Assembly (NCBI GenBank): GCA_019694215.1
Contig: JAIBCK010000027.1
Coordinates: forward strand, 1 to 36,916
Origin: Thermoflexales bacterium
GTDB taxonomy: Bacteria; Chloroflexota; Anaerolineae; J036; Brachytrichaceae
Reading direction: 5' to 3'
DNA: 36,916 bases
Within the stretch, counting starts at the first letter, position 1; the number at the start of each line of letters is the position of its first letter. This document shows positions 3,819 to 36,684 of this stretch, in pieces. Both the position numbers and the translations under genes were made by a program. Under the pieces are notes generated by a model. It saw only the letters and a list, made by a program, of their open reading frames with translations, had not been told where the DNA came from and did not search any database.

Positions 3819-4648
3819 GCCAGCACCCCCCGTCGACGGTGGGCGGCGTCCGTCTCGAGCTGTGGGATCTGCCGAAAGCCGGCCGCCTTCAGCCGGGCGC
3901 GCACCGCATCGCGCAGCGCCGTGCGGGTCTGGCCGGGTCCGCCCTCGCGCAGCGCGCGCAGGAAGTGATACGTGAAGGCGCCGTTCGCGCGCCCGTCAAA
4001 GGTCGCGTCGGCGCTGGTCTGATCGGCCCGGCAGCCCGTCCACAGCACCTGGTTGGCCGGCTGGCGGACGCGCTCGGGCGGGCGATCCAGCGCACGATCG
4101 GGTTCCGGCGCGGCGTACCACGGCGGCGGCAGCCAGCGCGGGCGGGGTTGGAAGGGCGAGAGCAGCAGGTTGGGGTCCACGCCCTTCAACCCGGTCCCGC
4201 TGTGGCAGGTGTCCATGAACACCTCCAGCGTGACCGTCTCGGGGAGTGCGGAAAACAACGTTCTCAGTTCATCGTCGGTGATGATCGTGTCCGGCTTCCA
4301 GCCCTCGCTGGCGGCGGCCAGGTCGTGGGGGCAGAAGGCCTCGTCGAGCCGGTCGCGCTCGTCGCCGTCCAGGTCGCGCACCTGCGTGCCGTGCGAGGAG
4401 AACGTGAAGACCAGCTCGCTCACCTCGCCCTTGAGGGCGGCCTTCACCAGGTGCTGGAGCTGACCCAGGATGGCCTTGCGGGTGGCCGCGCGGTCGCACA
4501 GCACCGTGACCGCCTCCGGCGCAAAGCCGAGGCTGCCCGTGAGCAGCGCCGCCATGTCATGGGCGTCGTTGACGCATCCCTGCAGCGTTGCAGTGGGCAG
4601 GTGTTTGAAGACGTTGATGCCGACGCACAGCGCGCGACGGTGAGCCAT
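3815..4648 (-). CDS. Caspase-family (metacaspase-like) peptidase
   Basis: A 277-residue single-domain member of the C14 caspase clan, closest in look to type I metacaspases. The first strand is RRALCVGIN (4-12), followed by LQGCVNDAHDM (22-32), typical of metacaspases. The catalytic pair is visible: H86 in FSSHGTQ and C148 in DTCHSGT. The acidic DLDGDERDRLDE loop (92-103) is also usual in this family. Metacaspases cleave after Arg or Lys, but no substrate can be named. There is no signal peptide, death-type adaptor or NTPase domain, so it appears to be a free-standing cytoplasmic protease. It is first in the operon with the rRNA methyltransferase and dgkA, and is divergent from the XPB operon. 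An SD-like GGAGG lies about 7 nt before the ATG. Confidence 0.87.
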   Translation of the reverse strand: MAHRRALCVGINVFKHLPTATLQGCVNDAHDMAALLTGSLGFAPEAVTVLCDRAATRKAILGQLQHLVKAALKGEVSELVFTFSSHGTQVRDLDGDERDRLDEAFCPHDLAAASEGWKPDTIITDDELRTLFSALPETVTLEVFMDTCHSGTGLKGVDPNLLLSPFQPRPRWLPPPWYAAPEPDRALDRPPERVRQPANQVLWTGCRADQTSADATFDGRANGAFTYHFLRALREGGPGQTRTALRDAVRARLKAAGFRQIPQLETDAAHRRRGVLA

Positions 4649-6599: not shown

Positions 6600-6600
6600 G

Positions 6601-8604
6601 ATGCCCCCTCGCAAGCGCGCCTCCGCCGAGCCGGCCCCTGCGCCCCGCGTCGCAAGCGGCGGCATTGAAGCCCGTCGGCGCTTCCGCGCGCTGATCATGC
6701 AGTCGGATTGGACCTTTGCCCTGATCGTCCTCAGCCAGACCGAGCAGCTCGAGCCGATTCTGGATGCTGACTTCTCCATTGCACAACTGCGCGAGATCGG
6801 ACGCAACCGCGGCATCGTGATGAGCGGCCCCTCCAAGGCGGCGATGGCGCAGCAGCTGGCGCGCGGGTTGGCCACCGCCAGCGCGGAGGCCTTGCGCGAC
6901 CCCGAGCGCTATCTCGACGGCCTGCGCCCGGTCGAGGCCGATTTCGTCCGCCGCGCGCTGACCGCCTACGGCCTGGTCCTGCCGCTGCCCCGCAGTGCCA
7001 TCGAGCGGCTGTGGCAGGCGACCCCCGGGCGCGATGTCACGGTCAGCGAGTTGCAGCAGGCGCTGCACCGGCAGGCCTTGCTCTTCCCGGCCCGCATCCC
7101 GGATTTTGGCGGCCTGCGGGACATCTTCTATGGCTGGCGTCAGTTGGGCGTAGCCGGACTGGAGCCGGTGCTGCGCTGGGATTTCCCGGCCCGGACGCCG
7201 CGCGGGGCCGGGCGAGGCAACGCGCGCGTCTTCCTGGCCGATTTCGAGCAGGTTATCGCCGCGGTGCAGGCCACCCCGCTCAGGCGCCGCGCGCGTCGGG
7301 CGCCGCATCGCGACGCCGCCAGCCAGCCTTTTCTGCGCAACCACGAGCATGACGCCGCGGATGCCGAGGCCGTGCTGGGCACACGGTCCGGGTGGGCGCC
7401 CGATCCGCGCACCGGCATCCAGGTCGTGCCCGATGATGTCATCGACGCTCCCACGGCCGCGCGCCTGAGCGCACAGACCGGCCTGTCTGAGCGTCATGCG
7501 TTGGTTCTGGCGACACTCGCCGCCGGCCAGTGTCTGCTGACCGATCCCGTGCCCTCCAAACCCGGCGCGCCGCTCAGCGTGCGTATGGACGCCCTGGAGC
7601 TGTGGTTGAGTTTGTCCAACGAAGAAAAGCTTCTCGAAGCCTGGCACTGCTGGACGCGCACGCTGGCCTTTGGCCTGGAGGCCTCCCTGGCCGGCGTCCC
7701 GGTGTATCGCGCGGTGGGGGTGTCTGACCTGTCACCGAGCCTGATCGGCACGGCCTGGTGCGAGATGCGCCAGTATTTCGTGCGCATCCTGCGCGGGCTT
7801 CCCGTCGATGCCTGGGTGGCGTGGCCGGCCCTGCGTGAGGCCATGCGCCAGCTGCATCCGCACAGCGCCAATACCATCGCACAACGTCACATGCTGTGGT
7901 TCGGAAAATCGGCAAATCGCCAGCCGCCGCCGGACAACGAGGCCAACTGGAACGCCACCGAGGGCGCCATTTTCGCCGCGATGGCGTGCGAGGTGCTGAC
8001 GGCGTTTGGCGCGCTCGATGTCGTGGTCGAGGAGGGCGCACTGACCGCGCTACGGGTGACGTCGACCGGGCACTGGCTGTTCGAGCGGCTGGGGGAGCGG
8101 GGCATCGCGTTGCCCGCCGAGGCGCGCCCGGCCGAGCGCCCACGCGAGCCAGTGCGCTGGCTGGATGACAACACCTGTCGGCTGCCGCCCGCCCCGGACC
8201 GCGGCGACTACATGGCCTTCGCGCGCGTGTTCGGCGAGCCCGGGCGTGCGCCCTTCACGTACCACATCACCGCCGCCAGCATGGAGCGCGCGCTGCGCAA
8301 CGGGATCACGCCGGTCCAGGCCGCAGAACACTTTGAGGCGTTGGGCGCGCCATTACCCGCCTCCATCCGCACGCGCTTCGAGGCCATGGCCGGTCGCTTC
8401 GGGCGTGTCCGCGCCTACGAGTCGGTCTGCGCGCTCACGCTCGGCGACGACGTGGCGCTGCGCGAGCTGCTCGCCGCCACCTCGCTGCGCGATGCCGTCG
8501 TCCACACGCTCTCGCCGCGCGTCGTCATCGTGCGGGCCGACCGGGTTGATGCGCTGATGAAGGAGATGGTCGAGAAGGGCTTCATGCCGGGGGTGCGGGG
8601 ATGA
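6601..8604 (+). CDS. Helicase-associated protein, first XPB partner
   Basis: A 667-residue soluble protein without a signal peptide or catalytic motif that I recognise. Its last 130 residues (536-667) match the helicase-associated domain (PF13625 type) also found at the N-terminus of XPB: FTYHITAASMERAL, the helix-turn segment GITPVQAAEHFEALG, then LPASI. The rest appears mainly helical and may contain winged-helix segments. Actinobacteria carry a comparable large protein beside their XPB gene, so a role as helicase partner or DNA-binding subunit is a reasonable inference. The ATG lies 1 bp after the XPB stop; the gene's own TGA overlaps the next ATG (ATGA). The N-terminus is basic and low-complexity (PPRKRASAEPAPAP). 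Confidence 0.8.
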   Translation: MPPRKRASAEPAPAPRVASGGIEARRRFRALIMQSDWTFALIVLSQTEQLEPILDADFSIAQLREIGRNRGIVMSGPSKAAMAQQLARGLATASAEALRDPERYLDGLRPVEADFVRRALTAYGLVLPLPRSAIERLWQATPGRDVTVSELQQALHRQALLFPARIPDFGGLRDIFYGWRQLGVAGLEPVLRWDFPARTPRGAGRGNARVFLADFEQVIAAVQATPLRRRARRAPHRDAASQPFLRNHEHDAADAEAVLGTRSGWAPDPRTGIQVVPDDVIDAPTAARLSAQTGLSERHALVLATLAAGQCLLTDPVPSKPGAPLSVRMDALELWLSLSNEEKLLEAWHCWTRTLAFGLEASLAGVPVYRAVGVSDLSPSLIGTAWCEMRQYFVRILRGLPVDAWVAWPALREAMRQLHPHSANTIAQRHMLWFGKSANRQPPPDNEANWNATEGAIFAAMACEVLTAFGALDVVVEEGALTALRVTSTGHWLFERLGERGIALPAEARPAERPREPVRWLDDNTCRLPPAPDRGDYMAFARVFGEPGRAPFTYHITAASMERALRNGITPVQAAEHFEALGAPLPASIRTRFEAMAGRFGRVRAYESVCALTLGDDVALRELLAATSLRDAVVHTLSPRVVIVRADRVDALMKEMVEKGFMPGVRG

Positions 8605-10448
8605 CGACCGAGATCCGGTTGCCCGCCCGAAGCTCGGGCATTGGTGCCGAAGATTTCCAGCGCGACCTCGGCCGCTACTGGCGCCACGTCCGACGGGCGG
8701 GCGGGCTGCCGATTGCGCAGACTGGCTGGATCTACAAGACCGCCTTCAAGACGCTGCTCGCGGCGCTGAACGACACCAGTGGCCCTACCGAGGAGGCGGG
8801 GCATGGCCGCCTGCACTTCATGCGCGCCGCGCTGACCGCGCTCGGCGCGTTGAGCGTCAACGACAACGGCGACCTGACCGTGGTCGAGGGTGCCGCCTAC
8901 CTCAGCCTGCCTCTGCCCGTGCGCGTGCGCATGCTGTTTGAGCTCTGGCGCGACAGCCCGTTCTGGTATGAGCTCAACCGGATTGCCACGCCACACTTCC
9001 GCGAGGAGCGGCCACCCGAGCCACCGCCCGAGATGGCGCGGGGGCGGGCCACGGCCCTGCGCTTGCTCGGTGAGAGCGTTCGCGAAGCGGGTCGATGGGT
9101 GTCTTTTGATCGCTATGCCGATCACGTCAAGCGTGTCGACGTGGGCTTTCTGCTGCGCCGCTCGACCGACCGGCGCGGCTACGCCGGCCGTTTCCAGCAC
9201 CTGTATCACCCGCTCGGCAACACGCCGTATGTCTCAGCCAACAACGCCTATGGCATCACCTTTGAGGTGCGCGACCCGGAGAAGGCCTGGGAGCGCGTCG
9301 AGCGCTTGGCCCTGGCGGCGATGCTGGCCGGCCCGTTGCGCTGGATGGGCCTGGCCGACATCGGCACTTTGCGCGACGACAACGCCCTGCCAAACCATGC
9401 TGACGGCGTGCCCGTCGACGCCCTTCGGCTGAGCCCGGCTGGCGCGTGGCTGCTGGCAAACGGACCCGAACCCGACTTCACCGAGTCGGGCGGGCGCGTT
9501 GTTGTCCAACCTAATTTCTCGATCCTCGCCATCGAGCCGATGGCGGATGCCGTACTGATCGACCTCGATCACTTCGCCGAGACGCGCGGCGGCGACCGGG
9601 CGGCGCTGTATGAGCTCACGCGCAGCTCGGTGTATCACGGGCAGCGCGCAGGTTGGACGGCCGCCCGAATCATCGCCTTTCTCGAAGGCCATCAGGGCGC
9701 GCCGCTGCCGGTCAACGTCCGGCGCAGTCTGGAGGAGTGGCAGCAGCAGCACGAGCGTATCACTTTCGTCCGTGGTGCGCGTCTGCTGCAATATGCCGAT
9801 GACGAGGCGCGGGCCGGCGCGAGAGAGAGCCTGGGCGCGACATCGCTGCGGATGGTGAGCGACCGCTTCGACCTGGTCACGACAGCGCAACCCCTCGACA
9901 CGCTTGTGAACACGCTGCGTGAGGCGGGCTGGGTGCCCCAGGTCAGCCGCGAGCAGGAGGATGATCGTGCCGGGGTCGTGCACGTCAATGCGGACGGCAC
10001 CCTGACGCTCAACCAGCCCGTGATCAGCCTGGAGGCGCTGGCCGACCTCGATCTGCTGGCCGAGCCCGAGGGCGAAGGCTATACGCTGAGCGCCGCGCAT
10101 GTGCGGGCCGCGATGGGCCGCGGGGTGCTGGCCGAGCAGGCCGTGGCCACGCTCGCCCACCTGGCCGATGGCCCGCTGCCCGAGGGCGTGGTCGATGCCC
10201 TGCACGGCTGGACGTCGTTCTACGGCGAAGCCACGGCCCGCGAGATGATCGCGCTGACCTTCTCGCATCTCGATGTCATGGAGCACGCGCTGGCGGATCC
10301 AGAGCTGGCCCGGCTCCTGCAGGCCATCCCCGGCGCCACACTGCCCATCGTGCTCATCGAACGCCGCAATTTCGCCAGGGCCCGGGCCGCGCTCATCGCG
10401 CGGGGTCTGGCGCTGTCGGGAGATCCCGTCAAAGCGGACAACGCATGA
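8601..10448 (+). CDS. Helicase-associated protein, second XPB partner
   Basis: A 615-residue soluble protein that starts inside the stop of the previous gene (ATGA overlap). Residues about 299-375 are a clear helicase-associated domain of PF13625 type: VVVQPNFSILAIEP, DLDHFAETRGGDRAALYELT, then GWTAARIIAFLEGH and LPVNVRRSLEEW. The N-terminal 290 residues and the C-terminal 240 are not recognised. The C-terminal part appears helical and reads like a weak duplicate of such domains. Together with the preceding gene this gives XPB two different large partners rather than one. No enzymatic motif is visible. The annotation as a partner rests on domain sharing and strict operon structure, not on experiment. 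Confidence 0.8.
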   Translation: MTTEIRLPARSSGIGAEDFQRDLGRYWRHVRRAGGLPIAQTGWIYKTAFKTLLAALNDTSGPTEEAGHGRLHFMRAALTALGALSVNDNGDLTVVEGAAYLSLPLPVRVRMLFELWRDSPFWYELNRIATPHFREERPPEPPPEMARGRATALRLLGESVREAGRWVSFDRYADHVKRVDVGFLLRRSTDRRGYAGRFQHLYHPLGNTPYVSANNAYGITFEVRDPEKAWERVERLALAAMLAGPLRWMGLADIGTLRDDNALPNHADGVPVDALRLSPAGAWLLANGPEPDFTESGGRVVVQPNFSILAIEPMADAVLIDLDHFAETRGGDRAALYELTRSSVYHGQRAGWTAARIIAFLEGHQGAPLPVNVRRSLEEWQQQHERITFVRGARLLQYADDEARAGARESLGATSLRMVSDRFDLVTTAQPLDTLVNTLREAGWVPQVSREQEDDRAGVVHVNADGTLTLNQPVISLEALADLDLLAEPEGEGYTLSAAHVRAAMGRGVLAEQAVATLAHLADGPLPEGVVDALHGWTSFYGEATAREMIALTFSHLDVMEHALADPELARLLQAIPGATLPIVLIERRNFARARAALIARGLALSGDPVKADNA

Positions 10449-12052: not shown

Positions 12053-12117
12053 ACGCGCCATAGGCACACCTACGCCTTTGTGCGTTGTGCGGCGGGGCGG
12101 CCATCGGCTGTTCGCAC

Positions 12118-12123
12118 TACAAT
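12118..12123 (+). promoter_or_regulatory. -10-like hexamer of a leaderless promoter
   Basis: TACAAT ends 7 nt before the GTG at 12131, so the transcript should start at the start codon. This hexamer, with the signal peptide directly after the GTG, decides the start of the carboxypeptidase gene against an in-frame ATG at 12080. Confidence 0.6.
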
Positions 12124-12130
12124 CCCCGGC

Positions 12131-14428
12131 GTGACCCGATCCCGCCTCCTGGCCCTCCTGCTCGGCCTGGCGCTTGCGCTGGGTGCCGCGCTGCGCACGC
12201 CGCTGCCCGGCGCACAGGCACTGGCCACGAACGCGGCGCCGCCGCTGGTGCGCGTGCGCGTGCGAATCCCCTCGGAGCGCGAGGCGCAGGCCCTGCTGGC
12301 CGGCGGCTGGGATGTGCTGGAGGCGCGCGCGCCCGAGGGCTTGTATGTCAACGCCGACCCCGTCGCGCTCAAGGCGCTGAGCGAGCGCGGATTTGAGTGG
12401 GCGCTCGATGCGCCCCTTCCCCCGCTCGCGCCGCGCGCGCCCGAGCTCTTCGATGGGGGCTATCACACGGTGGAGGAGCACATCGCGCACCTGCGCGCGG
12501 TCTCGGACAGCCATCCCGCGCTGACCACGGTGATCACCTACGGCGTGAGCTGGCGGCGCGAACAGAACGCCGCCGATGGCCACGATCTCTTCGCGCTCTG
12601 CGTGACGGAGAAGCGGCCCGGCGACTGCGCGCGGACGCCGGAGACGGACAAGCCGCGCTTCGTGCTGATGGCCTCGATCCATGCCCGCGAGCTCACCCCG
12701 GCGGAGGTGGCGTATCGCCTGATCGATGCCCTGGTCGACGGATATGGGCAGGACGCTGAAATCACCGCGCTGTTGCGCGACGAGGAGATTTGGATCCTGC
12801 CGGTGACCAATCCGGACGGGCGTGAGATCGTCGAAGCCGGCGGCAACGCGCCCTATCTCCAACGCAAGAATGCAAACACCAGCGCGGGCAGCTGCGCCCA
12901 GCCGCCCCAGTCGTACAGCCAGTTCGGCGTCGACCTCAACCGCAACGCCGACTGGCGCTGGGGGGTTGAGGGCGTCTCGGCGGACCCATGCTCGCCGCTG
13001 TATCTGGGTGGCGGGCCGGCCTCCGAGCCCGAAACCCGGGCGCTGATCGGGCTGTTCGAGGCGCTGTTCAAGGATCAACGCGGACCGTTGGCCGGTGACG
13101 CAGCGCCAATCACCACGACGGGGGCGCTGCTCACCCTTCACAGCTACAGCAACCTGGTCCTGCTGCCATGGGGAAACAGCGGCCCCGGCGCGCCGAACGA
13201 TGCGGGCCTGCGCGCGGCGGCGTTTCGGATGAGCTTCTTCAACGGGTATGTTGCCGGCCGGCCGCCCGAGGTGTTGTATGGCGTGTCAGGATCGACCGAC
13301 GATGCCGCTTATGGCGGGCTCGGGGTGGCGGCCTTCACCTGGGAGATGGGACAGGCCGCGGGCGCGACAACCTATCCGCATTGCGCGGGCTTTCTGCCCG
13401 CGTTTGACTGCCAGTCCGCCCGGTTCTGGCCCGAGGCACGCGCCGGCCTGCTGTATCTCGCGGCCGCGGCGCGCCAGCCGTATGCGCTGGCGCTCGGCCC
13501 GACCGTGCTGACGGCGTCGCTCGACATCACCGCCAGCGCACCCGGCGCAGTGTTCACCGTGACCGCGCGGCTGGCCGATGACGCGCTGGGCGCGGAGGTG
13601 GGTAGCGTCGGACGCCCGGCCAGCCAGCCCGTCGCCGAAGCCGAGGCGTATGTCGACCTGCCCCCGTGGCGCGGGGGGACGCCGATCGCGCTGCTCGCCC
13701 GCGATGGTGGGTTTGACCAGCCGCGCGAAGTCGTGGCCGGGGCGATCACAGCGCCCAACGATCCGGGGCTACACCTGCTCTACGTGCGCGGGCAGGACGC
13801 GAGTGGGCAGTGGGGGCCCGTCCACGCGCTGTGGCTCCCGGTGCAGGCCGACGCGGCCCCCGCCATCCCGGTCCCCCCGCCGGCGCCGGCCGGGGCGTGT
13901 CTTTCGGTGACCGTGTCGGCGACCGTGCCGGTGACCGACAGCCTGGGCGTGATGAACTGCATCCGTTTGCCGGTTCCCGATCACGTCGCGGTGGCGTCGC
14001 TGCGGGTGCGCATGGCGGTCACGCATCCCTGGGTGGGCGATCTCCGTCTGCAGGTGCGCAACCCGGAGGGTCTGGCGCTGACGCTGCTCAACCGGCCGGG
14101 GGGCGGCACGCGCCCCGCCGACCTCTTTGCCGGAGCGCCGATCCTGTTCAGCGATGCGGCGTCGGCCTCGGCGTCGGCCCTGGGGGAGGGGCTGGGGGAT
14201 GGCGTGGTGTGCGGGTCCGGCGGGCCGTGCGCGTTCACACCGGCGCCCGCGGGCGATCCGACCTCGGACCTGGGTCGGCTGGCCGATTTCTCTGGCGGGG
14301 CTGCAGATGGGGTTTGGGAGGTGTGTGCGGCCGATCACGCCCCATACTCGGCCGGCGCGCTGGTTTCGGCGACGCTGGAGATCAATTGCGGGCCGGTCCG
14401 CCTGTACCTGCCGCGCCTCGGGCGCTGA
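12131..14428 (+). CDS. Secreted M14 zinc carboxypeptidase with P-domain
   Basis: A 765-residue exported peptidase. The signal peptide is VTRSRLLALLLGLALALGAALR with likely cleavage near AQA (28-30), which only makes sense from the GTG at 12131. The M14 domain spans about 110-455. Zinc ligands are H184 and E187 in HARE and H337 in LTLHSYS. The substrate-binding pair is N270-R271 in DLNRN, with Y394 in GSTDDAAYG and the catalytic E405 in TWEMG. It should remove C-terminal residues from peptides outside the cell. Residues about 625-755 form a proprotein-convertase P-domain (HPWVGDLRLQVRNPEG, DGVWEVCAAD). The protein ends RLYLPRLGR, resembling short LP..R tails of secreted Chloroflexota proteins. 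It stands alone and has its own promoter. Confidence 0.9.
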   Translation: MTRSRLLALLLGLALALGAALRTPLPGAQALATNAAPPLVRVRVRIPSEREAQALLAGGWDVLEARAPEGLYVNADPVALKALSERGFEWALDAPLPPLAPRAPELFDGGYHTVEEHIAHLRAVSDSHPALTTVITYGVSWRREQNAADGHDLFALCVTEKRPGDCARTPETDKPRFVLMASIHARELTPAEVAYRLIDALVDGYGQDAEITALLRDEEIWILPVTNPDGREIVEAGGNAPYLQRKNANTSAGSCAQPPQSYSQFGVDLNRNADWRWGVEGVSADPCSPLYLGGGPASEPETRALIGLFEALFKDQRGPLAGDAAPITTTGALLTLHSYSNLVLLPWGNSGPGAPNDAGLRAAAFRMSFFNGYVAGRPPEVLYGVSGSTDDAAYGGLGVAAFTWEMGQAAGATTYPHCAGFLPAFDCQSARFWPEARAGLLYLAAAARQPYALALGPTVLTASLDITASAPGAVFTVTARLADDALGAEVGSVGRPASQPVAEAEAYVDLPPWRGGTPIALLARDGGFDQPREVVAGAITAPNDPGLHLLYVRGQDASGQWGPVHALWLPVQADAAPAIPVPPPAPAGACLSVTVSATVPVTDSLGVMNCIRLPVPDHVAVASLRVRMAVTHPWVGDLRLQVRNPEGLALTLLNRPGGGTRPADLFAGAPILFSDAASASASALGEGLGDGVVCGSGGPCAFTPAPAGDPTSDLGRLADFSGGAADGVWEVCAADHAPYSAGALVSATLEINCGPVRLYLPRLGR

Positions 14429-15208: not shown

Positions 15209-15320
15209 GTCACACGCCTTCGCCCCCTTGACAGTATCCGCAACTGCCTCCAAAGTCGGCGCACTCCCGACGCGCAAGGGGAAGACGCGCTCGGCAGGCA
15301 ACCCCCAGTATGCCGTTTTC

Positions 15321-15330
15321 AGGAGGAGGA
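15321..15330 (+). promoter_or_regulatory. Strong Shine-Dalgarno sequence deciding a GTG start
   Basis: AGGAGGAGGA ends 2 nt before the GTG at 15333, its AGGAGG core 6 nt from it. This is one of the strongest ribosome binding sites in the window and picks the GTG over the in-frame ATG at 15228. Confidence 0.75.
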
Positions 15331-15332
15331 TC

Positions 15333-17756
15333 GTGAAGCATTCGCCGTCGTACCGCCTGTCGCTTGCCGACCTCGGCCAGCGCACACCCGCCAGCTTTCC
15401 CCGTGCGCGTCTCAACCTCGCCCAGTTGCACCCCACCCTCACGCTGCGCGGGAAGCGCGTCCGCAAGGCGACCGAACTCCGGGAGCCGCGGCTGCGCTTT
15501 CTGATGAAACTGCCGGCGCACATCGAGGCCGAGACCGTCCTGCGTATCGCGCGGGCCGCCTTTGGCGCGGAATTGCCCGCCCGCCGTCAGGAGCGCCGCA
15601 TCGTCGATGAGCTGCAGGTCATCCCGATCGCCCGGCTGGAGGCGGCCGGCGCCGCGTGGTGGGCGCTCGAGCTACCGGTCACCCTGGGCGCCTTCCTGGC
15701 CGAGACGCGCTTCGATGCCCGGCAACTGAACGCCCTGGCCGCCCAGCTCAAGGCCATCGACGGCGTCCTCGATGCGGAAGCCGATGCGCCGGCCATCAAC
15801 CGCGTCGTGCCGTTGCAGGAGAAGATTCCCGGTTGTACTGTCGGACGGGCGAATGCCCCGCAGGACAACCTGTGGTCGCAGCGCCTCGTTCACCTGCTGG
15901 ATGACAGCGACACGCGCCTGATCGCGCAGAACGGCCAGGGCATCACGATCGGGATGATCGACACCGGCTACACCGACCACGTCGAGCTCGATCTGCAGAC
16001 CGCCTTCGACCTCGGTGCCTCGACCAGCGTCATCGACAACGGGGGCGGTCTCGATCCGATGGCGTCCGGGACCTCGCACGGCACGGCGACGGGCTCGCTG
16101 ATCACCAGCGCCCAGCATCCCAACGACCCCAACGACCGCGTGATCGGGATTTCCCCCGGCGCACGGGTGATCGCCGTGCGTGCGCTCGATTTCGTCATCG
16201 TCCTTCCGGTCGGCGAAACAGATCCGCTGACCGGGCAGCTGATCGAGACCTTCCTCCCCAGCAACATCGTCGGTGGGCTGCAGAAGTGCCTGGATGCCGG
16301 CTGCGATGTCATCAACATGAGCTTTGGCGGGGTCGTCTCGCAGGCAGTACGCGACCTGCTCCACGAGGCGTATGAACGCGACATCATCCTGTGCGCGGCG
16401 GCCGGCAACTGCGTGCAGGTCGTGGTCGAGCCCGCCGCGCGGCCCGAGGTGATCGCCTGCGCCGCAGTCGGGCTGGACCCCGCGACGGGCGATCCGCGGC
16501 CGTGGCCGGGCAGCTCGCACGGCCCGTTGATCGACATCAGTGCGCCGGGCGAGAACGTCTATATCGCAGACTGGGACGCCGGCACGCAGGTCGTTCGGCC
16601 GGGCGAGGGCACGTCCTTCGCCGCGCCCCATCTCTCGGCCGCCGCCGCGCTGTGGCTGCAAAAGCACGGCGCGAGCGCGTTGCGCAACCGCTACAACGGG
16701 CAGTCGCGTCTGGCTGACGTATTTCGGAGCGTTGTGCGCGCCTCGGCCACGGTGCCGGGTGGCTGGAACACCAATCAGTATGGCGCCGGCATCCTGAACC
16801 TCAAGGCGCTGCTCGATCAGCCCCTGCCCAAGCAGGCCGGGCCGAAGGGCGAGGTGGCGACGGGAGCGCCGTGCGAGGTGGCGATGGGGCTGATCGACCT
16901 GTTCCTATCCGGCGACCGGCTGCCGGTGTTGAGCGAGACCGTGCGGGTGCGCGCCGATGTCGCCACCATCGAGGTGCGTGACGACGGAGAAGCCTGGGGC
17001 GGCGCGGAGCCGTATCTGGTCGAGACCTTCTACCGCATCGACGGACGGACCGCGAAGGCGGAGCTGGTGGTGGATGCGTCAACCGTCGCGCAGGACGGCG
17101 TGCTCAACTGCACTTTCTCGATCCAACGTCGCGACCAGGCGACGTCGATCGTCAAGATCCGTCAACGCGGCCGGCACGGCAACCTGGGTGATGTCAACAT
17201 CGGCGCACTGGAGTACAACGCCTCCGGCCCGGTCACGGTCAACGTGCCCAACCGGGTGGGGCGCTGGGACACGACGGTGCGGCCGATCCCGTTGCGCATC
17301 CTGGTCAACCTGGGGGATGTGATCGTGGGCAAGGATGTGGTCGGCGTGCCCGGCTTCATCGGCGCGCTGACGCTGCTGCTGGAGGAGGACTTCTGGTCGA
17401 CGGAGATCGTCGACACTGTCAAGGAGGCACTGCGCACGCACACGCGGCGGACAATGGAGAATCTCCTGCGCGAGTTGAGCTTCTCGCTGTCGTTGTCCGA
17501 CCTGGCCCTCGACTATCCTCAGATCGACGCCGAACGCCTGTCGCTCGAAATCGAGGATCGGGTGCGGCAGAGTGTGTTTGCCAACGCAAATTGGTGGGAT
17601 GCATTCTGGGCCGGCGTCGACAGCGACGACATCCTGATCCAGGACTTCACGATGGTCAACGTGTTGCAGCTGGGCAATCCGGTGCCGATTGCGCCACCGG
17701 AGGAGAACGGCGACCACGGGCGCTGGTTGCTGCGCGGGGCGATTTCGAAGCGGTAG
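15333..17756 (+). CDS. Subtilisin-family (S8) serine peptidase, no signal peptide
   Basis: An 807-residue subtilase. The catalytic triad is complete: D210 in GMIDTGY, H249 in GTSHGTATG, S428 in GTSFAAPH, with oxyanion N359 in AAAGNC. The catalytic domain is about 200-450. The 200 residues before it resemble neither a signal peptide nor an obvious I9 propeptide. The 350 residues after it are unrecognised: beta-rich first, then helical with acidic stretches near 680-760. Lack of a signal peptide suggests a cytoplasmic protease or export by an unseen route. The GTG start follows a strong SD. The stop codon TAG (17754-17756) is itself part of a GTAGGGGCGAAGCGA repeat string, so a repeat may have supplied the present end of the gene. 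Confidence 0.88.
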   Translation: MKHSPSYRLSLADLGQRTPASFPRARLNLAQLHPTLTLRGKRVRKATELREPRLRFLMKLPAHIEAETVLRIARAAFGAELPARRQERRIVDELQVIPIARLEAAGAAWWALELPVTLGAFLAETRFDARQLNALAAQLKAIDGVLDAEADAPAINRVVPLQEKIPGCTVGRANAPQDNLWSQRLVHLLDDSDTRLIAQNGQGITIGMIDTGYTDHVELDLQTAFDLGASTSVIDNGGGLDPMASGTSHGTATGSLITSAQHPNDPNDRVIGISPGARVIAVRALDFVIVLPVGETDPLTGQLIETFLPSNIVGGLQKCLDAGCDVINMSFGGVVSQAVRDLLHEAYERDIILCAAAGNCVQVVVEPAARPEVIACAAVGLDPATGDPRPWPGSSHGPLIDISAPGENVYIADWDAGTQVVRPGEGTSFAAPHLSAAAALWLQKHGASALRNRYNGQSRLADVFRSVVRASATVPGGWNTNQYGAGILNLKALLDQPLPKQAGPKGEVATGAPCEVAMGLIDLFLSGDRLPVLSETVRVRADVATIEVRDDGEAWGGAEPYLVETFYRIDGRTAKAELVVDASTVAQDGVLNCTFSIQRRDQATSIVKIRQRGRHGNLGDVNIGALEYNASGPVTVNVPNRVGRWDTTVRPIPLRILVNLGDVIVGKDVVGVPGFIGALTLLLEEDFWSTEIVDTVKEALRTHTRRTMENLLRELSFSLSLSDLALDYPQIDAERLSLEIEDRVRQSVFANANWWDAFWAGVDSDDILIQDFTMVNVLQLGNPVPIAPPEENGDHGRWLLRGAISKR

Positions 17757-28358: not shown

Positions 28359-30281
28359 CTACTTGATCTCGTACTTCTCCGCCAGCATCGGCACGTACTT
28401 GTTCTCGGCCGTGTTGTAGAAGAAGAGCGGTGTGTAGATCCACGGGTTGTTCACCGAGCCCAGCCCGAGCGGGATGTTGTCGGCGGCGAACACGTTGTAG
28501 TGGCCCTTGGGCGGCGCCACATACGGATAGCTCGTCGCGAAGACCTTCTTGGCGTTGGTCGCCGACGGCTTGAGGATGCCATTGATCAGCTGCCAGGTCG
28601 TCGGCGAGTCGTTCTGGTTGTTCTGATAGATCGGATCGGTGAAGGGCAACCAGCCGGTCACGCGCGTCTTGGTGTCGATCGGGTCGTTGGCGTAGCGCTC
28701 CCACAGGGTCAGCACGGGCAGCTGGTCGTTGAAGATCTGCGCGACCGATGCGACATACGGCTTCTGCGCCGCCGTGTCAAAGCCATCGGCCATCTTGTCG
28801 ACCAACTCGCTCACGTTGACGTCCTTGCCATCCGCGCCCTTCTGCGTCCACGGCCAGTTGATGCCGCGCGAGCCCTCGGGCTTGGTCGGGTTGTTCTTCC
28901 CGCCGATGCCGTCGCGGATGTTGTAGTTGTAGGAGCTGTAGGGGTGCGGCGCGCCGCCCAGGATGCCGATGTCCATCGAGATCTGGAACTTGCCGGTCGG
29001 GGCGAGCGTGTTGCGCTCCGCGGAGGGATACCCGCGGATCGTCAGCAGGATGCCGAACTTCTTGAGCTGCAGGGCGACGTTCTCGGCCGAGCTGAAGAAG
29101 TCGATGAAGTCCTGCGGGACCACCATCTCGTACTCCATCTTCTTGCCCTTGTCGTCGACCCAGATGCCATCCGCGCCCTTGGTGAAGCCGATGCCCTTGA
29201 GCAGCGCCTCGGCCTTGGCGGGATCGTAGGCATAGCCGTTCAGCTTGGCCATCTGATCGGCGCTCAGCCAGCCGGGCACCCACAGGTCTGTGAAGCCGGC
29301 CATGTACTTGAGCGGCACGGCGCTCTCGCCGAGCGCGGCCTTGGCCACTTCGGCGCGGTTGATCGCGTAGGCGAAGGCCTGGCGGACTTCCTTCTTGCCC
29401 AACGGATAAACATCATTATTGAAGTACATCCCCGCGCCGTTGTTCAGGGCGATGCGGATGATCTTCATCTGGTCGCCCAGCGCCATGAAGGATTTCTCGG
29501 CCTCGGGCGGATAGGCGTTCGAGCTGTAGTCCAGCTCGCCCGACAGATACAGCGGGATCGAGTCCTTGGTCTCGCCCGCGTAGACCAGAATGCTGTCAAA
29601 GCCGATCTTGTCGGCGTTGTAGCCATTCGGGTTCTTCTTCAGCGTCAGCTGCGCTTCGGTCACGCTCTTCGGGTCAACGTTGAACGGGCCGGAGACGACG
29701 GCCTCGGTCGGGCGGAACTTGCTCAGGTCATCCAGGAAGGCCTTGACCGCGTCGCCCTTGCGGTCGACGTTGTCCTTGCGCATCTGAGCGGCCTGATCCA
29801 TGAACTTCGAGAACTGCGAGTAGGCGCGCACGTTGTTCGAGCGCAGCAGGCTGCGCAGCAGCGCCGGGCCGGGGCGGGTGATCTTGAACTCGACCGTGGT
29901 GTCGTCGACGGCGACGACGTCCGAGATCTGCGTCCAGATCGAGTCGCTCTGCGCCCAGAACACGTTGTAGGTGCCAACGATGTCCTTGGCGGTATAGGCT
30001 GCGCCATCACTCCACTTCAGGCCCTTCTTCAGGGTGATGGTCAGCGTATTCTTGACCGGAAGCGGCGTCGGAACAGGCGCCGCCGTTGGCTTGGGGACGT
30101 CCGTGGGCTTTGGCACATCCGTGGGCTTGGGCGCCGTGGTCGGGGGCACCGCCGTGGGAGGCGCCGCCGTGGGCTTGGGAGCGTCGGTGGGTTTGGGCAC
30201 GGCGGTCGGGGTGGCCGCATTGCAGGCCGCCAGCAACAGGCTGAGGGCGACCAGGGACGTAGCAATTCGAGACAGTTTCAT
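28359..30281 (-). CDS. ABC transporter family 5 solute-binding lipoprotein, apparently circularly permuted
   Basis: A 640-residue lipoprotein (signal peptide 1-19, lipobox LAAC with C20) with a Pro-Thr linker of KPTD and PTA repeats (21-76). It captures the ligand for the permeases encoded upstream. Domain order is odd. Right after the linker comes TLTITLKKGLKWSDG (79-93), which in this family normally lies about 65-70 residues into the mature domain. The core then runs normally through RQAFAYAINRAEVAKAAL (300-317) to VTGWLPFTDP and about residue 572. The last 64 residues (577-640: AKKVFATSYPYVAP, GLGSVNNPWIYTPLFFYN, YVPMLAEKYEIK) are what usually opens the domain. Joining 640 to 78 restores the consensus. 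A very strong SD (GAGGAGGAGGAT) abuts the ATG. Last gene of the operon. Confidence 0.9.
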   Translation of the reverse strand: MKLSRIATSLVALSLLLAACNAATPTAVPKPTDAPKPTAAPPTAVPPTTAPKPTDVPKPTDVPKPTAAPVPTPLPVKNTLTITLKKGLKWSDGAAYTAKDIVGTYNVFWAQSDSIWTQISDVVAVDDTTVEFKITRPGPALLRSLLRSNNVRAYSQFSKFMDQAAQMRKDNVDRKGDAVKAFLDDLSKFRPTEAVVSGPFNVDPKSVTEAQLTLKKNPNGYNADKIGFDSILVYAGETKDSIPLYLSGELDYSSNAYPPEAEKSFMALGDQMKIIRIALNNGAGMYFNNDVYPLGKKEVRQAFAYAINRAEVAKAALGESAVPLKYMAGFTDLWVPGWLSADQMAKLNGYAYDPAKAEALLKGIGFTKGADGIWVDDKGKKMEYEMVVPQDFIDFFSSAENVALQLKKFGILLTIRGYPSAERNTLAPTGKFQISMDIGILGGAPHPYSSYNYNIRDGIGGKNNPTKPEGSRGINWPWTQKGADGKDVNVSELVDKMADGFDTAAQKPYVASVAQIFNDQLPVLTLWERYANDPIDTKTRVTGWLPFTDPIYQNNQNDSPTTWQLINGILKPSATNAKKVFATSYPYVAPPKGHYNVFAADNIPLGLGSVNNPWIYTPLFFYNTAENKYVPMLAEKYEIK

Positions 30282-30521: not shown

Positions 30522-31364
30522 TTACACCCCCTGTCGCAGACGCGGGTTGAAGACTTCCTCCAACGCGCGCATGATCCACACCAGCCCGATCTGCAGCATG
30601 ACGATGGCGCCAATCGGGGTGATCACCCCCCAGGCCGCCGACGCGGTGTAGATGGCGCCCTTGTTCTCGGCCAGGCTCAGCATCACGCCCCAGTTGGCGC
30701 TGCTGAACGGGATCAGGCCGAGGAAGACCAGGCTGGTCTGATAGTAGATGGCGAAGACGATCGTGCTGACGAGCGCGATCGCGATGAAGCTCAGCATGTT
30801 CGGCAGCATCTCGCGGAAGATGATGTGCCCCGGGCCGAGGTCGAGCATGTTTGCGGCCTCGATGTAGTCGCGCTTCTTGAGCGAGAGCACCACCGTGCGC
30901 ACCTGCCGCGCGAGCGACGGCCAGCCCATCACCGCGATGATGATCGACAGCATCCACGGCTCCTTGAGCTTGAGCAGCGTGGCCAAAATGGCCAGCAGAG
31001 GGAAGCGCGGGATGGTCAGCCACAGCTCGATGAAGGCGACCAGCAGCGCATCCGCCCGCCCGCCGAAATAGGCCGCCGTCGCGCCGATGGACACCGCGAT
31101 CAGCGTCTCCAGTATGCCGGTGATCAGCGCGATCAGCATGATGTCCTTGCCGCCTGAAAAGAGCAGCGCCAGGTTGTCCAACCCTTGAAAGTTGGTGCCC
31201 AACGGATGCTCTGCGGTTGGGCCCTCCGAGGCGTGGGCGAGGTCGGCGGTGTCGCCCACCGGGCGCAGGCCCGGGCCGATCACTGCGCTCAGCACGAGCA
31301 GGCCGACCAGGACCAGGCCGACCAGACCGAGCTTGTTGCGGGCGAAGAGGCGAAGGGTTTCCAT
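30522..31364 (-). CDS. ABC transporter permease, DppC/OppC type
   Basis: A 280-residue inner membrane subunit of a peptide/nickel-type importer (BPD_transp_1). It has the N-terminal helix of the OppC subgroup (LGLVGLVLVGLLVLSAVIGP), the ALITGILETLIAVSIG segment and the EAA loop YIEAANMLDLGPGHIIFREM (about 168-187) that contacts the ATPase. Four to five further helices follow the usual plan. The N-terminal HPLGTNFQGLDNLA corresponds to the HPLGTD..GRD motif but with Asn-Phe in place of the usual residues. An AGGAGG lies 8 nt before the ATG, and the gap to the preceding permease gene is 12 bp. Confidence 0.93.
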   Translation of the reverse strand: METLRLFARNKLGLVGLVLVGLLVLSAVIGPGLRPVGDTADLAHASEGPTAEHPLGTNFQGLDNLALLFSGGKDIMLIALITGILETLIAVSIGATAAYFGGRADALLVAFIELWLTIPRFPLLAILATLLKLKEPWMLSIIIAVMGWPSLARQVRTVVLSLKKRDYIEAANMLDLGPGHIIFREMLPNMLSFIAIALVSTIVFAIYYQTSLVFLGLIPFSSANWGVMLSLAENKGAIYTASAAWGVITPIGAIVMLQIGLVWIMRALEEVFNPRLRQGV

Positions 31365-31376: not shown

Positions 31377-32432
31377 CTAGGGACCGGTGGCCTTGATCCG
31401 CACGCGCGGGTCGAGATAGCCATACAGAAAGTCGGCGACCAGCCCGGACACGACGACGGCCGTCGTCGTCACCAGGAAGATGCCCTGCATCACCGGATAG
31501 TCGCGCGCGCCCAGCGCCTGCACCGCCTCGTAGCCCAGCCCGCGGTACTTGAAGATCTGCTCGATGATGAGCGAGCCGCCCATCGAGAAGCCGATCACGA
31601 TCGCCAGCCGGGTGAAGAGCGGCAGTGAGGCGTTTCGCCCGACATAGGCGGTCATGATGCGCGAATCGCGCAGCCCGCGCGCCTTGGCCACCGTCACGTA
31701 GTCGTCGCCCAGCGCGTTGATCGTGTTGGCCCGCATCGCCAGGATCCAGCCGCCCACCGTGGTCAGGACGTAGATCGCGGCAGGCACGCGCCAGTGCATG
31801 AAGACGTCGCTGAAGAACTCGAGCGAGAACTCGGGCTGCACGCCGGGAGAAAGCGCGCCGCGCAGCTGCGAGATCGGAATGACCTTCCACACCGCGCCGA
31901 GCATCAGCACCGCCAGCAGCGCGAGCGTGAAGGCGGGCAGGGCCTCCATCAGCGCGGCGAAGTTGGTGATCAGCAGATCGATCAGGGTGTTGCGCCGGTA
32001 GGCGGCCAGCGTGCCCAGCAGGATGCCCAACGTAAAACTGATCAGCAGCGAGCTGCCCACCGAGAAGATCGTCCACGGCAGGCGCTGCGTGATGATTTCC
32101 GCCACCGGCACCGTGCGCGCCTTGAACGAGGTGCCCAGATCACCCGTCACCAGCTTGGCCATGTAGTCGAGATACTGCTCGCCGACCGGTTTGTCGAGCG
32201 GGATGTTCATCATCATGGCGGCCTGGTTGCGCGCATCCTCGGCCGACGCGCCCGCCCGCAGCAGCTCTTCCATGTAGATGTCGATGGGGTTGCCCGGCAT
32301 CAGACGGATCAGGAAGAAGGTCAGCGTCGTCGCCAGCCAGATCGTCAACAGCGCCTTGAGCAGCCGGCCGCCGAGATAGCGCAGGGCCAGTCCGCTGCGC
32401 GATGGGGTGGATTTGATGGGGATTGCGCTCAT
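31377..32432 (-). CDS. ABC transporter permease, DppB/OppB type
   Basis: A 351-residue inner membrane subunit. The first helix segment is YLGGRLLKALLTIWLATTLT followed by FFLIRLMPGNPID, as in DppB/OppB. The periplasmic part includes GDLGTSFKARTVPVAEII, and the EAA loop is DDYVTVAKARGLRDSRIM (about 244-261). The C-terminal part with DFLYGYLDPRVRI is typical. It should pair with the next permease to form the channel. The start lies 9 bp after the stop of the zinc-ribbon protein gene, and its SD (AGAGGAA) overlaps that stop, so translation is likely coupled. Confidence 0.93.
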   Translation of the reverse strand: MSAIPIKSTPSRSGLALRYLGGRLLKALLTIWLATTLTFFLIRLMPGNPIDIYMEELLRAGASAEDARNQAAMMMNIPLDKPVGEQYLDYMAKLVTGDLGTSFKARTVPVAEIITQRLPWTIFSVGSSLLISFTLGILLGTLAAYRRNTLIDLLITNFAALMEALPAFTLALLAVLMLGAVWKVIPISQLRGALSPGVQPEFSLEFFSDVFMHWRVPAAIYVLTTVGGWILAMRANTINALGDDYVTVAKARGLRDSRIMTAYVGRNASLPLFTRLAIVIGFSMGGSLIIEQIFKYRGLGYEAVQALGARDYPVMQGIFLVTTTAVVVSGLVADFLYGYLDPRVRIKATGP

Positions 32433-32441
32433 CGTGTTCCT

Positions 32442-33710
32442 CTATGCGCCGATGTACTCGCGATACAGGTCGATGGCCCGGGAGGCCACTGCTGCCTCGA
32501 GCGGTTTGAGCTCCTGTTGCAGCCGCTCGTGATCGCGGTCCGTCCAAACCACCGGGGGTGCCGTCCGCGGCAGCGCGTTCAACACGTCCACCCGAAACTG
32601 CGTCGGTGGGAGGCTGGAGTTGGCAAAGGCGCCGGCCTTGAGGGTCACCCGTCGCAGCCGCTCGCGCTCGCGCGGGGACATTGCCTGCAGGCATGCCCGG
32701 ACCTCGTCGATGTACCCGCGCTTCTTGTCAAGTGGGTTGGCGCTGACCGCCAGGCGTTGTGCGGCGTTCAAGACCGCCACCGACGGAGCATCGTCCGCCA
32801 AGAAGTCGCTCCAGTGCTGCGCGCCAGCGACCCGCGCAGTCAAGCGATCGGCCAGGTAGGCGGCGCGCTGGGAGTCCAGGCGTGTGAGCGAGTAATACGC
32901 GTTGGCCAGGCCTTTGCTGAGCGACGCGGCAATCCTCAACGGTATCGTTGCGAGCAGCGTCAACCAGGGCATCCTGCGCCCCCCCGGCGGCGAAGCGGGC
33001 AAGATGGCGTACGAGAAGCGAAACAACAGGGTCCAGGCATTGCCCGTCACGCCGATTCGCAGCAGATCGCCGTTCTTCAGGTGCGCCAGCCCGCCGGCGA
33101 TCAACGCCACAACTTGCTGAGGCGGCGTGGTGAAGAGAAGGGGATAGCTCAGGGTGAGCAGGGGCCGGGGCGGAAAGCCGACCGGGCCGATTGACGTCTG
33201 CGCAAATGGGTTGAGCGCGATCAAATCGATTTTCCGCACGCCCATTTCGGCAGCGATGCGGTCGACCAGGCCGAACAGGGCGGGGTGCTCCGCGCGGGGC
33301 AGGGTGCCCTTTGGGACCGGATCGATGTTGATCAGCAGCCGCAGTGCGGTGGCGACCGCGGTCACCCCAAGCAGCACCGGGATGATGTAGGGCCAGAAGC
33401 GCACAACGGTAAAAAGCCCCATCCCCCCGCATGCCAGCACCGGCAGGTGGATGAGCACCGCGAACAGGATGGCGAGCGCGGCGCGCGTGTCGCGGCCCGG
33501 TCGCGCCTCGGGATGCGCCAGCACGTCGTCGCGCAGCGCCCGCGCATGCTTCTCGTTCAGGTGGGTTGCCAGGGCGTTCAACGAGCCCGGGGCCGGCGGC
33601 TTCTCGTTTGGATCGATGTTCCAGTCGCAGGCGTCGCACCACGTCACCTCGAGCGGGTGCTCGGTGAGTTTGGCCCCGCAGTTGGGGCAATGCGTGAGCG
33701 TGTCACTCAT
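32442..33710 (-). CDS. Zinc-ribbon membrane protein with degenerate M48 peptidase-like domain
   Basis: A 422-residue protein. A zinc ribbon (C8, C11, C25, C28 in HCPNCGAK and WCDACDW) opens it. Two helices follow (about 77-98 and 105-127), then a region laid out like M48 (HtpX-type) peptidases: FGLVDRIAAEMGVRKIDLIA (146-165), PLLTLSYPLLF (183-193), QVVALIAGGLAHLKNGDLL (199-217) and SQRAAYLADRL (280-290). The HExxH site is GGLAH (206-210), so the first His and catalytic Glu are lost; the downstream Glu ligand before Tyr is Ala. It is probably a pseudo-enzyme. ATGA overlap with the ATPase gene upstream and a 9-bp gap to the permease gene fix it inside the importer operon. The ATG at 33710 is chosen because of this overlap and the zinc ribbon. 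Confidence 0.78.
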   Translation of the reverse strand: MSDTLTHCPNCGAKLTEHPLEVTWCDACDWNIDPNEKPPAPGSLNALATHLNEKHARALRDDVLAHPEARPGRDTRAALAILFAVLIHLPVLACGGMGLFTVVRFWPYIIPVLLGVTAVATALRLLINIDPVPKGTLPRAEHPALFGLVDRIAAEMGVRKIDLIALNPFAQTSIGPVGFPPRPLLTLSYPLLFTTPPQQVVALIAGGLAHLKNGDLLRIGVTGNAWTLLFRFSYAILPASPPGGRRMPWLTLLATIPLRIAASLSKGLANAYYSLTRLDSQRAAYLADRLTARVAGAQHWSDFLADDAPSVAVLNAAQRLAVSANPLDKKRGYIDEVRACLQAMSPRERERLRRVTLKAGAFANSSLPPTQFRVDVLNALPRTAPPVVWTDRDHERLQQELKPLEAAVASRAIDLYREYIGA

Positions 33711-34717
33711 GACCGGGCCTCCGCCTGAGCCTGCTGGCGCAGCTGCTCGATGACCGGGTGACAGGCCACCGAGACACCCCCGCCCACCTCGACGAGCGCC
33801 GGCGACTGCGCGCTGCACCGCTCGCCCTCAAAGGCCGGGCAGCGCGGATGAAAGGCGCACCCGCCCGGCATCCTGAGCAGGCTGGGGATTTCGTCGCTGC
33901 GCAGACGGATGCGTTCCCGCCGTTGGACGCCCTCCAGCTCGGGTTCAGGGATGGCTGACAGCAGCGCGCGCGTGTAGGGATGCCGGGGATGCTCGACCAG
34001 CGCACGGGCCGGCGCAAGCTCGACCATGCGCCCGAGATACATCACCCCGATGCGCCCCTCCCACGCAAAATACTTCGCCAGCGCCAGGTCGTGGGTGATG
34101 AAGAGCACGCCCAGCCCCATCTTGTCCTTGAGCGCCGAGAGCGTATTGAGCAGCGCGATACGGATGGACATGTCCACCGACGCGACAGCCTCGTCGGCGA
34201 TGATGAAGGACGGGTTCACGGTCAGCGCGCGCGCGATGGAGACGCGCTGGCGCTGCCCGCCGCTGAGCTGGTGGGGGTATTTCTCGATCAGGTCCGCCGC
34301 CGGGGTGAGGTTGACCAGCTCGAGCAGCTCGATCGCGCGGGCGCGGGCCGCCGGGCCGCGCGCAAAGCCGTGCCGTTCGAGCGGCGCGCGCAGGATCTGC
34401 CCAACGGTGCGGGTCGAGTTGAGCGAGGCATACGGATCCTGATGGATGAGCTGCACGCCCAGCCGGAAACGCCGGTACGCATCGCCCTTGAGCGACTTGA
34501 TGTCCTGACCACGATACAGGATGCGCCCCTGGCTCACCGCGAGCAACCCGGCCACCATCTTGCCCGTCGTCGTCTTGCCGCAGCCACTCTCGCCGACCAG
34601 GCATACGACCTCGCCCGGCGCGATGTCCAGCGAGACGTCGTCCACGGCACGGATGCTCTGACGCCCCACCTCGAAGGTGCGGGTGACGTTCTGCAGGGAG
34701 ATGAGCGGCGTCGTCAT
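33707..34717 (-). CDS. ABC transporter ATPase, OppF/DppF type
   Basis: A 336-residue nucleotide-binding subunit of the peptide importer. Walker A is GESGCGKTT (42-50), the signature LSGGQ (151-155), Walker B FIIADEAVASVD with D175 and E176, and the switch His is in FITHDLAL. The usual DEPVSALD of the family reads DEAVASVD. The C-terminal oligopeptide-ATPase extension has GGCAFHPRC and later ERCSAQ and VACH, the Cys set that can hold an iron-sulfur cluster in this family. The ATG overlaps the TGA of the partner ATPase gene (ATGA), and its own TGA overlaps the next ATG in the same way. Confidence 0.94.
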   Translation of the reverse strand: MTTPLISLQNVTRTFEVGRQSIRAVDDVSLDIAPGEVVCLVGESGCGKTTTGKMVAGLLAVSQGRILYRGQDIKSLKGDAYRRFRLGVQLIHQDPYASLNSTRTVGQILRAPLERHGFARGPAARARAIELLELVNLTPAADLIEKYPHQLSGGQRQRVSIARALTVNPSFIIADEAVASVDMSIRIALLNTLSALKDKMGLGVLFITHDLALAKYFAWEGRIGVMYLGRMVELAPARALVEHPRHPYTRALLSAIPEPELEGVQRRERIRLRSDEIPSLLRMPGGCAFHPRCPAFEGERCSAQSPALVEVGGGVSVACHPVIEQLRQQAQAEARS

Positions 34718-35742
34718 CGGGTCGCCTCCGCCCGCGCAGCGCCGGCGACGTCGCGCCAGAAGTGGCAGCGCACGATGTGCCGCGCGGCGACTTCCTCCGG
34801 CGGCGGCATGTCCTGACTGCAAATGGCCTGCGCAGCCTGGCAGCGGGCGTGGAAGGCGCACCCCTTCGGCAGGTTGATCAGGTCCGGCGGCGAGCCGGGG
34901 ATCGAGGCGACCTCGGCCCGGTCGCTGTCCAACGTAGGCAGTGACCGCAGCAGCCCTCGCGTATACGGATGGTGTGGCCGATTGAAGAGCGTGCGCGTGT
35001 TGCCGATCTCGACGATGGTCCCCGCGTAGAAGGTCGCCATGCGATCCACCAGCTCGGCGGCCAGGGCCAGGTCGTGCGAGATGAAGATCATCGAGAAGTT
35101 CAACGCCTTGCGCAAATCCCGCAGCACGTCGATGACGCTGCGCTGCGTCAACACATCCAGCGCGGTGGTCGGCTCGTCGAGGATGAGCAACTGCGGTTCG
35201 AGGAGCAGGGCCAGCGCGATCAGCACGCGCTGGCGCATCCCGCCCGACAGCTCGTGGGGGTAGGCCTCCCACACCCGGCGCGGATCCAGACGCACCAGCT
35301 CGAGCAGCGACTTGCCGCGCTCGACCAGCTCGCGGCCGCGCGGTCCGCCGTGCGCGCGCGAGGTGTCATTGAACTGATCCGAGATGCGCAGGACGGGGTT
35401 GAAGGCGTTCATCGAGCCCTGGAACACCATGGCCGCCTCCTTCCAGCGGAAGCGACGCAGGCCCTCGGCGTCCAGCGCACGAACATCTATCTCGGTCGCG
35501 CTGCCATCGGCCACCGGCCGGCGATACACGATCTCACCGGCGCTGATCGTGGCATTCCCGGGCAGCAGGCGGATCAGGCTGGTGCCGACCGTGGTCTTGC
35601 CCGAGCCGCTCTCGCCGATCAGCGCCAGGGCCTCGCCCGGCAGCAGGTCGAAATTGACCGCCTGCGCGGCCTTCACCCACCCGCGCCGGGTCTGATACTC
35701 GATCGCCAGATTGCGGACGGACAGCGTGGGGTGGGAGGGCAT
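34714..35742 (-). CDS. ABC transporter ATPase, OppD/DppD type
   Basis: A 342-residue nucleotide-binding subunit. Walker A is GESGSGKTT (43-51), the Q loop VFQGSMNAFNP, the signature ELSGGMRQR (164-172), Walker B LLILDEPTTALD (D189, E190) and the switch His in FISHDLAL. The C-terminal Cys motif is KGCAFHARC, AICSQ and VRCHF. Together with the OppF-type partner it energises import. The start is 18 bp after the murQ stop; TAAGAT ends 5 nt before the ATG, so an internal promoter is possible, but the short gap also suits co-transcription with murQ. Confidence 0.94.
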   Translation of the reverse strand: MPSHPTLSVRNLAIEYQTRRGWVKAAQAVNFDLLPGEALALIGESGSGKTTVGTSLIRLLPGNATISAGEIVYRRPVADGSATEIDVRALDAEGLRRFRWKEAAMVFQGSMNAFNPVLRISDQFNDTSRAHGGPRGRELVERGKSLLELVRLDPRRVWEAYPHELSGGMRQRVLIALALLLEPQLLILDEPTTALDVLTQRSVIDVLRDLRKALNFSMIFISHDLALAAELVDRMATFYAGTIVEIGNTRTLFNRPHHPYTRGLLRSLPTLDSDRAEVASIPGSPPDLINLPKGCAFHARCQAAQAICSQDMPPPEEVAARHIVRCHFWRDVAGAARAEATR

Positions 35743-35760: not shown

Positions 35761-36684
35761 TTATGGATGTGGCCCGGGTCCCGGCGCAGACGCGCCAGTC
35801 AGGGCGCGACGCACCTGGCCACCGGCGCGCGAGAGACGGGCCTGCGCTTCCTCGCAGTCGCAGCCGGTCAGACCCGCCACGATGGCGGTCTTGGTGTTGC
35901 CGCACGCCGTCAGCAGGCGTTGGGCTTCCTCCGCGGGCAGGCCGGTCACGGCTTCGACGATGCGGCGGGCCCGGTCGCGCAGCTTGGTGTTGGACGCCTG
36001 CAGGTCGACCATGAGGTTGCCGTAGGTCTTGCCCAGCCGGATCATGGCTGTGGTCGAAATCATGTTGAGCGCCAGCTTGGTCGCCGTGCCCGCCTTCATG
36101 CGCGTCGAGCCGGTGATCACCTCCGGCCCGGTGAGCAGGCTGATTGCGATCTCGGCCGCGTCGTGCACGGGCGCGGGCGCCGCCGAGCAGCACAGGCTGC
36201 CCGTGAGCGCGCCGCGGGCGCGGGCCTCGCGCAGCGTGCCGACGACATACGGTGTGCGCGCGCTGGCGGCCACGCCGAGCACGCTGTCGAGCGCGCCTAC
36301 GTCCAACGCAGCGATGTCCGCAGCGCCCAGGGCGACGTTGTCCTCGGCGCCTTCCACGGCCTGGAACATGGCCTCGCGCCCGCCCGCGATCAGCCCGCGC
36401 ACGAGGGTGGGCGGCACGCTGAAGGTCGGCGGCATTTCACTCGCATCGACGACGGCCAGGCGACCCGACGTGCCCGCGCCGGTGTAGATCAGGCGTCCGC
36501 CGCGCTGCATCCGCGCCACCAGCCCGTCGACAAAGCGGGCCAGGTCGGGGATGGCCGCCGCGACGGCGTCCGCGACGCCCTTGTCCTCGGCGTTGATCCG
36601 GCGCAGGATCTCCAGCGTGGGCTGGGCGTCGATGTCGACGGTCTTTGCGTTGACGCCTTCGGTGAGCGGCAGCGAGGGCGTCAT
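35761..36684 (-). CDS. murQ: N-acetylmuramic acid 6-phosphate etherase MurQ
   Basis: A 307-residue SIS-domain enzyme that removes the lactyl ether from MurNAc 6-phosphate to give GlcNAc 6-phosphate and D-lactate, a central step in reusing cell-wall sugar. It starts [13 protein letters not shown] (7-19), followed by [20 protein letters not shown] (66-85). The two catalytic Glu residues, E83 (DASE) and E114 (EGAED), fall at the same numbers as in the E. coli enzyme. [17 protein letters not shown] and a C-terminal helical region complete the family pattern. The ATG overlaps the stop of anmK by 4 bp (ATGA). The Pro-rich last ten residues are a small extension. Confidence 0.96.

Follow-up and report, generated by a model that had tools for sequence, protein, structure and literature searches.

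An open reading frame (ORF) between the oppF and oppB genes of a Thermoflexales bacterium encodes a membrane protein that, by its sequence, is a zinc-ribbon member of the M48 peptidase family whose catalytic residues have been lost. The gene (positions 32442-33710, minus strand) lies in a window of 36,916 nt, which is the whole stretch of DNA that was analysed (GCA_019694215.1, contig JAIBCK010000027.1, positions 1 to 36,916), and it appears to have joined the operon late, as an accessory gene outside the core subunits of the importer. On balance, we lean towards the view that this dead M48 protein was added to the operon and has been maintained there as a membrane protein with a putative non-proteolytic function.

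The ORF begins with ATG, encodes 422 amino acids, and is embedded in a series of genes on one strand in the order murQ, oppD, oppF, ORF, oppB, oppC, oppA. Family searches identified the neighbours as a MurNAc-6-phosphate etherase (murQ, 35761-36684) upstream of the opp genes, oppD-type (34714-35742) and oppF-type (33707-34717) ATPases, oppB-type (31377-32432) and oppC-type (30522-31364) permeases, and an SBP_bac_5 substrate-binding protein (oppA, 28359-30281), all on the minus strand. The stop codon of oppF and the start codon of the ORF overlap in the sequence ATGA (33707-33710, minus strand), and the gap between the ORF and oppB is 9 bp (32433-32441); the first-pass annotation had pointed to both features, which are read directly from the sequence. 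Such an overlap would position the ORF for translation with the operon, and the gene is presumably expressed. The GC3 of the ORF (0.85) is close to that of its operon neighbours (0.88-0.92), and the ORF thus looks like a coding gene. With regard to the importer itself, murQ heads the operon, and none of the matches listed near 12 related opp operons is murQ. This contrast hints that muropeptides or amino sugars may be what the importer carries in this species.

The layout originally proposed for the ORF protein, with an N-terminal ribbon, two helices and a degenerate M48 active site, was borne out in each of its parts. The zinc ribbon (C8-x2-C11-x13-C25-x2-C28, with the motif WCDACDWN; 33627-33689) aligns within the family, and Kyte-Doolittle peaks predict transmembrane helices at residues 77-95 and 109-127 (33330-33482), which a low-confidence fold model places at residues 75-102 and 109-127. 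In family alignments, GGLAH (residues 206-210; 33081-33095) occupies the position of the HExxH motif of relatives, and SQRAAYLAD (residues 280-288; 32847-32873) corresponds to SQRAEYLAD, so that the glutamate that serves as the third zinc ligand is replaced by Ala284. A further active-site loss, absent from the first-pass annotation, is found where relatives have the HPP motif; the ORF protein reads SSLPP there (32604-32618), with the histidine changed to leucine at position 367. These motifs are all encoded on the minus strand. The HExxH motif, the glutamate and the HPP motif hold the catalytic residues of M48 peptidases, and the alignments match them. A 13-row alignment has 25 columns that do not vary among the 12 rows besides the ORF protein, and that protein differs at nine of them (P127, A172, G188, H206, E207, W232, E284, A299 and H367), while each of the other rows changes zero to three. 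The changes in the ORF protein affect four of the five active-site columns versus five of the 20 other invariant columns (Fisher p 0.04). This alignment and the tree built from it leave out two near copies (L007 and L010), a distant homologue (L011) and a split one with masked letters (L050). Homology and the loss of catalytic residues together support the description of the ORF product as a catalytically dead, M48-like, zinc-ribbon membrane protein.

Searches of Pfam, NCBIfam and PDB sequences with the ORF protein itself returned no M48 match, and its assignment to M48 thus rests on homologues and the low-confidence fold model. A genome scan identified two Streptomyces relatives (L002 and L003; 30-32% identity, E 5e-29 and 2e-26) that align with the ORF protein over nearly its full length, and both match PF01435 above the curated cut-off (E 2.7e-14 and 1.7e-9). 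The Peptidase_M48 profile check suggested at the outset failed for the ORF protein and succeeded for its full-length Streptomyces homologues. The fold model, built on a three-row alignment, is of low confidence (pLDDT 51.8, pTM 0.52). Foldseek with this weak model ranked Ste24p first (E 0.06, prob 0.91), followed by BlaR1, BepA, a gluzincin zymogen and ZMPSTE24, and a second aligner placed the HtpX domain 3cqb first (Z 7.6, rmsd 2.7, 84 residues), a score below 8, with an unrelated chain at 7.5. That M48 structures top these lists agrees with an M48 fold for the modelled protein and does not prove it.

The ORF protein has the ribbon, the hydrophobic helices and the full-length alignment of the zinc-ribbon M48 branch, and on sequence grounds it is a member of this branch, which is patchily distributed in Chloroflexota and actinomycetes. 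Relatives were found in 15 of 400 Chloroflexota genomes at E <= 0.001 (a count that takes in the ORF's own genome and several weak matches), in 21 of 396 genomes of the same class at 1e-12 (own included) and in 24 of 394 actinomycete genomes at 1e-40. Close relatives within the class number only six others (G700, G487, G599, G517, G727 and the split G550). Seven plasmid records also carry relatives, six from Actinomycetes and one from Deinococcus; five of the matches are annotated as 'M48 family metallopeptidase', and at the other two no gene is annotated. None of 125 pattern matches in viral contigs is a relative of the ORF protein, and phage records gave no match to it. Among 49 homologue rows, own copy excluded, H206, E207, H210 and E284 are present in 45, two are dead and the site is uncovered in two; the class and actinomycete scans used a profile made mostly from live members and kept strong matches only, and 45 of 49 is thus not a prevalence. 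In a 36-row tree, composed of the 13 rows plus 17 live and six dead representatives, the ORF protein falls among the Chloroflexota members (SH-aLRT 90 and 84). In ribbon, helices, length and motif order the ORF protein matches its zinc-ribbon M48 relatives in Streptomyces and Chloroflexota, but the sampled proteins have an intact active site in those 45 rows and none was seen in an Opp operon. It resembles M48 proteins more broadly (PF01435; HtpX, Ste24/ZMPSTE24 and BepA) in having membrane helices that precede a gluzincin-like core, and differs from HtpX, Ste24 and BepA in its missing HExxH, third-ligand glutamate and HPP histidine and in its additional N-terminal zinc ribbon.

The genome that carries the ORF (96% complete) has no PF01435 match, and such a match was found in two of 26 other genomes of the family that were searched. 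The idea that the ORF protein replaces an ordinary M48 protein of the host is weak, since PF01435 is also missing from most of the family. Other genes of the window include one for a caspase-domain (Peptidase_C14) protein (3815-4648, E 3.3e-29), and a zinc carboxypeptidase (M14, 12080-14428) and a subtilase (S8, 15228-17756) that lie near each other on the plus strand. A tightly packed, single-strand group at 4761-10448 consists of an XPB/RAD25-type helicase gene and, after it, two ORFs that match Helicase_C_3.

A second group of inactive proteins belongs to one actinomycete family. Two census homologues (L106 and L107) are without HExxH, the glutamate and the HPP histidine, and when one of the two was used to search genomes of the actinomycete family that they come from, 40 matches were listed, in 32 of 150 genomes. 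Twenty of the 40 matched loci were read, and HExxH was found in the matched stretch of none; 18 aligned as dead and two were partly covered. Pairs from this dead branch that are more than 60% identical have omega values of 0.19-0.56 versus 0.07-0.12 for two live control pairs, which indicates that the dead proteins are under constraint, though a weaker one than the live proteins. In 13 of 18 fetched loci (L118, L119, L144-L149 and L151-L155), the dead gene immediately precedes lipA in the same orientation, with 25-176 nt between matched ends, and in seven of these 13 loci lipB lies within 171 nt upstream. At these actinomycete loci, the names lipA, lipB and TetR were assigned by eye from the sequences. 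The two dead-branch proteins that were run against Pfam had no match there. Titles and abstract openings listed from the open-access PMC library yielded no bacterial M48 pseudo-protease, and open-access searches on bacterial pseudo-proteases and on lipA with M48 returned nothing on the ORF protein. The actinomycete dead branch is a conserved pseudo-protease in a lipoate cluster, is under purifying selection and is apparently undescribed. Separate inactivations of the ORF protein and its dead actinomycete counterparts are possible but not established: parsimony on a quick tree counted two, but an AU test did not reject one dead clade (p 0.507), and long branches are in play.

The main rival to a maintained ORF protein is that the ORF is a decaying passenger, a captured M48 gene that was inactivated, has no function and is being lost. 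This is unlikely in our estimation, though it deserves serious attention. No branch of the 13-row tree is longer than that of the ORF protein (2.28 versus a median of 0.76), and the protein has lost five non-catalytic invariant residues in addition to those of the active site. No match to the ORF protein was found in 98 relatives' genomes besides its own, 27 of them from its own family, and the synonymous codon usage of the ORF is the least typical among the named genes scored, with one uncharacterised ORF lower. Against decay, the 422-codon frame is intact with a GC3 in keeping with a coding gene, the WCDACDWN ribbon is perfect, and 15 of the 20 other invariant columns are retained. The ORF has no orthologue close enough for a direct test of selection. 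In a simulation of neutral drift over its 422 codons (4000 runs at each of seven distances), the joint probability that four given codons would change and no stop codon would arise was at most 0.0005, which makes simple decay since inactivation unlikely and leaves relaxed selection possible. The retention of the dead actinomycete relatives, as reflected in their omega values, also counts in favour of a retained ORF protein.

A different explanation is the one put forward in the first-pass annotation, in which the ORF protein is a dedicated partner of the importer that acts as a scaffold, gate or quality-control factor. The tight fit of the gene between oppF and oppB favours this idea, and there is a precedent in YqgP of Bacillus subtilis, a membrane protease with a metal-binding cytosolic N-terminus that presents the transporter MgtE to FtsH and acts on it independently of its own protease activity (PMC7231995). 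The comparative evidence points the other way. In a sister species of the same genus (G001), oppD, oppF, oppB and oppC are 74-80% identical to those of the window, and 24 nt with no intervening gene separate the end of oppF from oppB. A homologue of the ORF was not found elsewhere in that genome either (67% complete and fragmentary). None of 12 related opp operons, consisting of that of the sister species and 11 further ones, carries a homologue, and the conserved presence in orthologous operons that marks an Opp/Dpp subunit is thus absent even within the genus. The opp order outside the genus is B-C-D-F, and the oppF/oppB junction is thus one that the operon has in common only with that of the sister species. 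There was no opp gene within three genes of 16 homologue loci, some of them on short contigs, and none at the 18 dead-branch loci of actinomycetes. The only transporter neighbour noticed was a gene for an amino-acid-type binding protein, which lies some 470 bp downstream of one homologue (L073); the neighbours of live members vary and include AllG-type, RACo-type and VTT-domain proteins, an alpha/beta hydrolase and an acyltransferase. Homologues with an intact HExxH occur outside importer operons, a pattern that the first-pass annotation had itself said would speak against its proposal, and a search of the open-access literature on importers with M48 proteins returned nothing on the ORF protein. 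A dedicated partnership with the importer is accordingly improbable. From the empty site in the sister species, the 11 further operons and the homologue loci without opp genes, the simplest reading is that this species gained the ORF, by insertion between oppF and oppB after the split from its sister, as judged from a single, incomplete sister genome; loss from the sister species in place of a gain here is possible. Finally, it is very hard to credit that the ORF protein is a still-active metallopeptidase with an unusual metal site, as H210 and D288 are retained but the first histidine, the catalytic glutamate, the third-ligand glutamate and the HPP histidine are all gone.

The ORF protein has lost the protease centre of its zinc-ribbon M48 branch, namely two of three zinc ligands, the general-base glutamate and the HPP histidine. 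If it is indeed maintained, it would most likely reside in the membrane and use its former substrate groove and its ribbon to bind other proteins, which it would leave uncut. It may serve in this way as a quality-control adaptor or a decoy, with the importer as one candidate client. The YqgP-FtsH-MgtE system offers a working analogy only, as it likewise combines a membrane protease fold, a metal-binding N-terminus and a non-proteolytic action on a transporter; YqgP is a rhomboid protease, however, from a family that is unrelated to M48, and it is itself active, unlike the ORF protein (PMC7231995). YqgP indicates that non-proteolytic roles of this kind exist in bacteria, and such a role is our best guess for the ORF protein.

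The occurrence of inactive members in the poorly described zinc-ribbon M48 branch raises a broader and more speculative idea, that this branch repeatedly yields pseudo-proteases that are retained as non-proteolytic membrane adaptors and adopted by unrelated clusters, Opp in one case and lipB-lipA in another. We hold this only tentatively and think it rather unlikely. The lipA-syntenic inactive members, which are under purifying selection, are testable pseudo-enzymes, and a conserved lipA-linked pseudo-protease is of more interest than the ORF of the window. Should the broader idea hold, the retained pseudo-proteases of this branch would be a bacterial M48 counterpart to the rhomboid pseudo-proteases.
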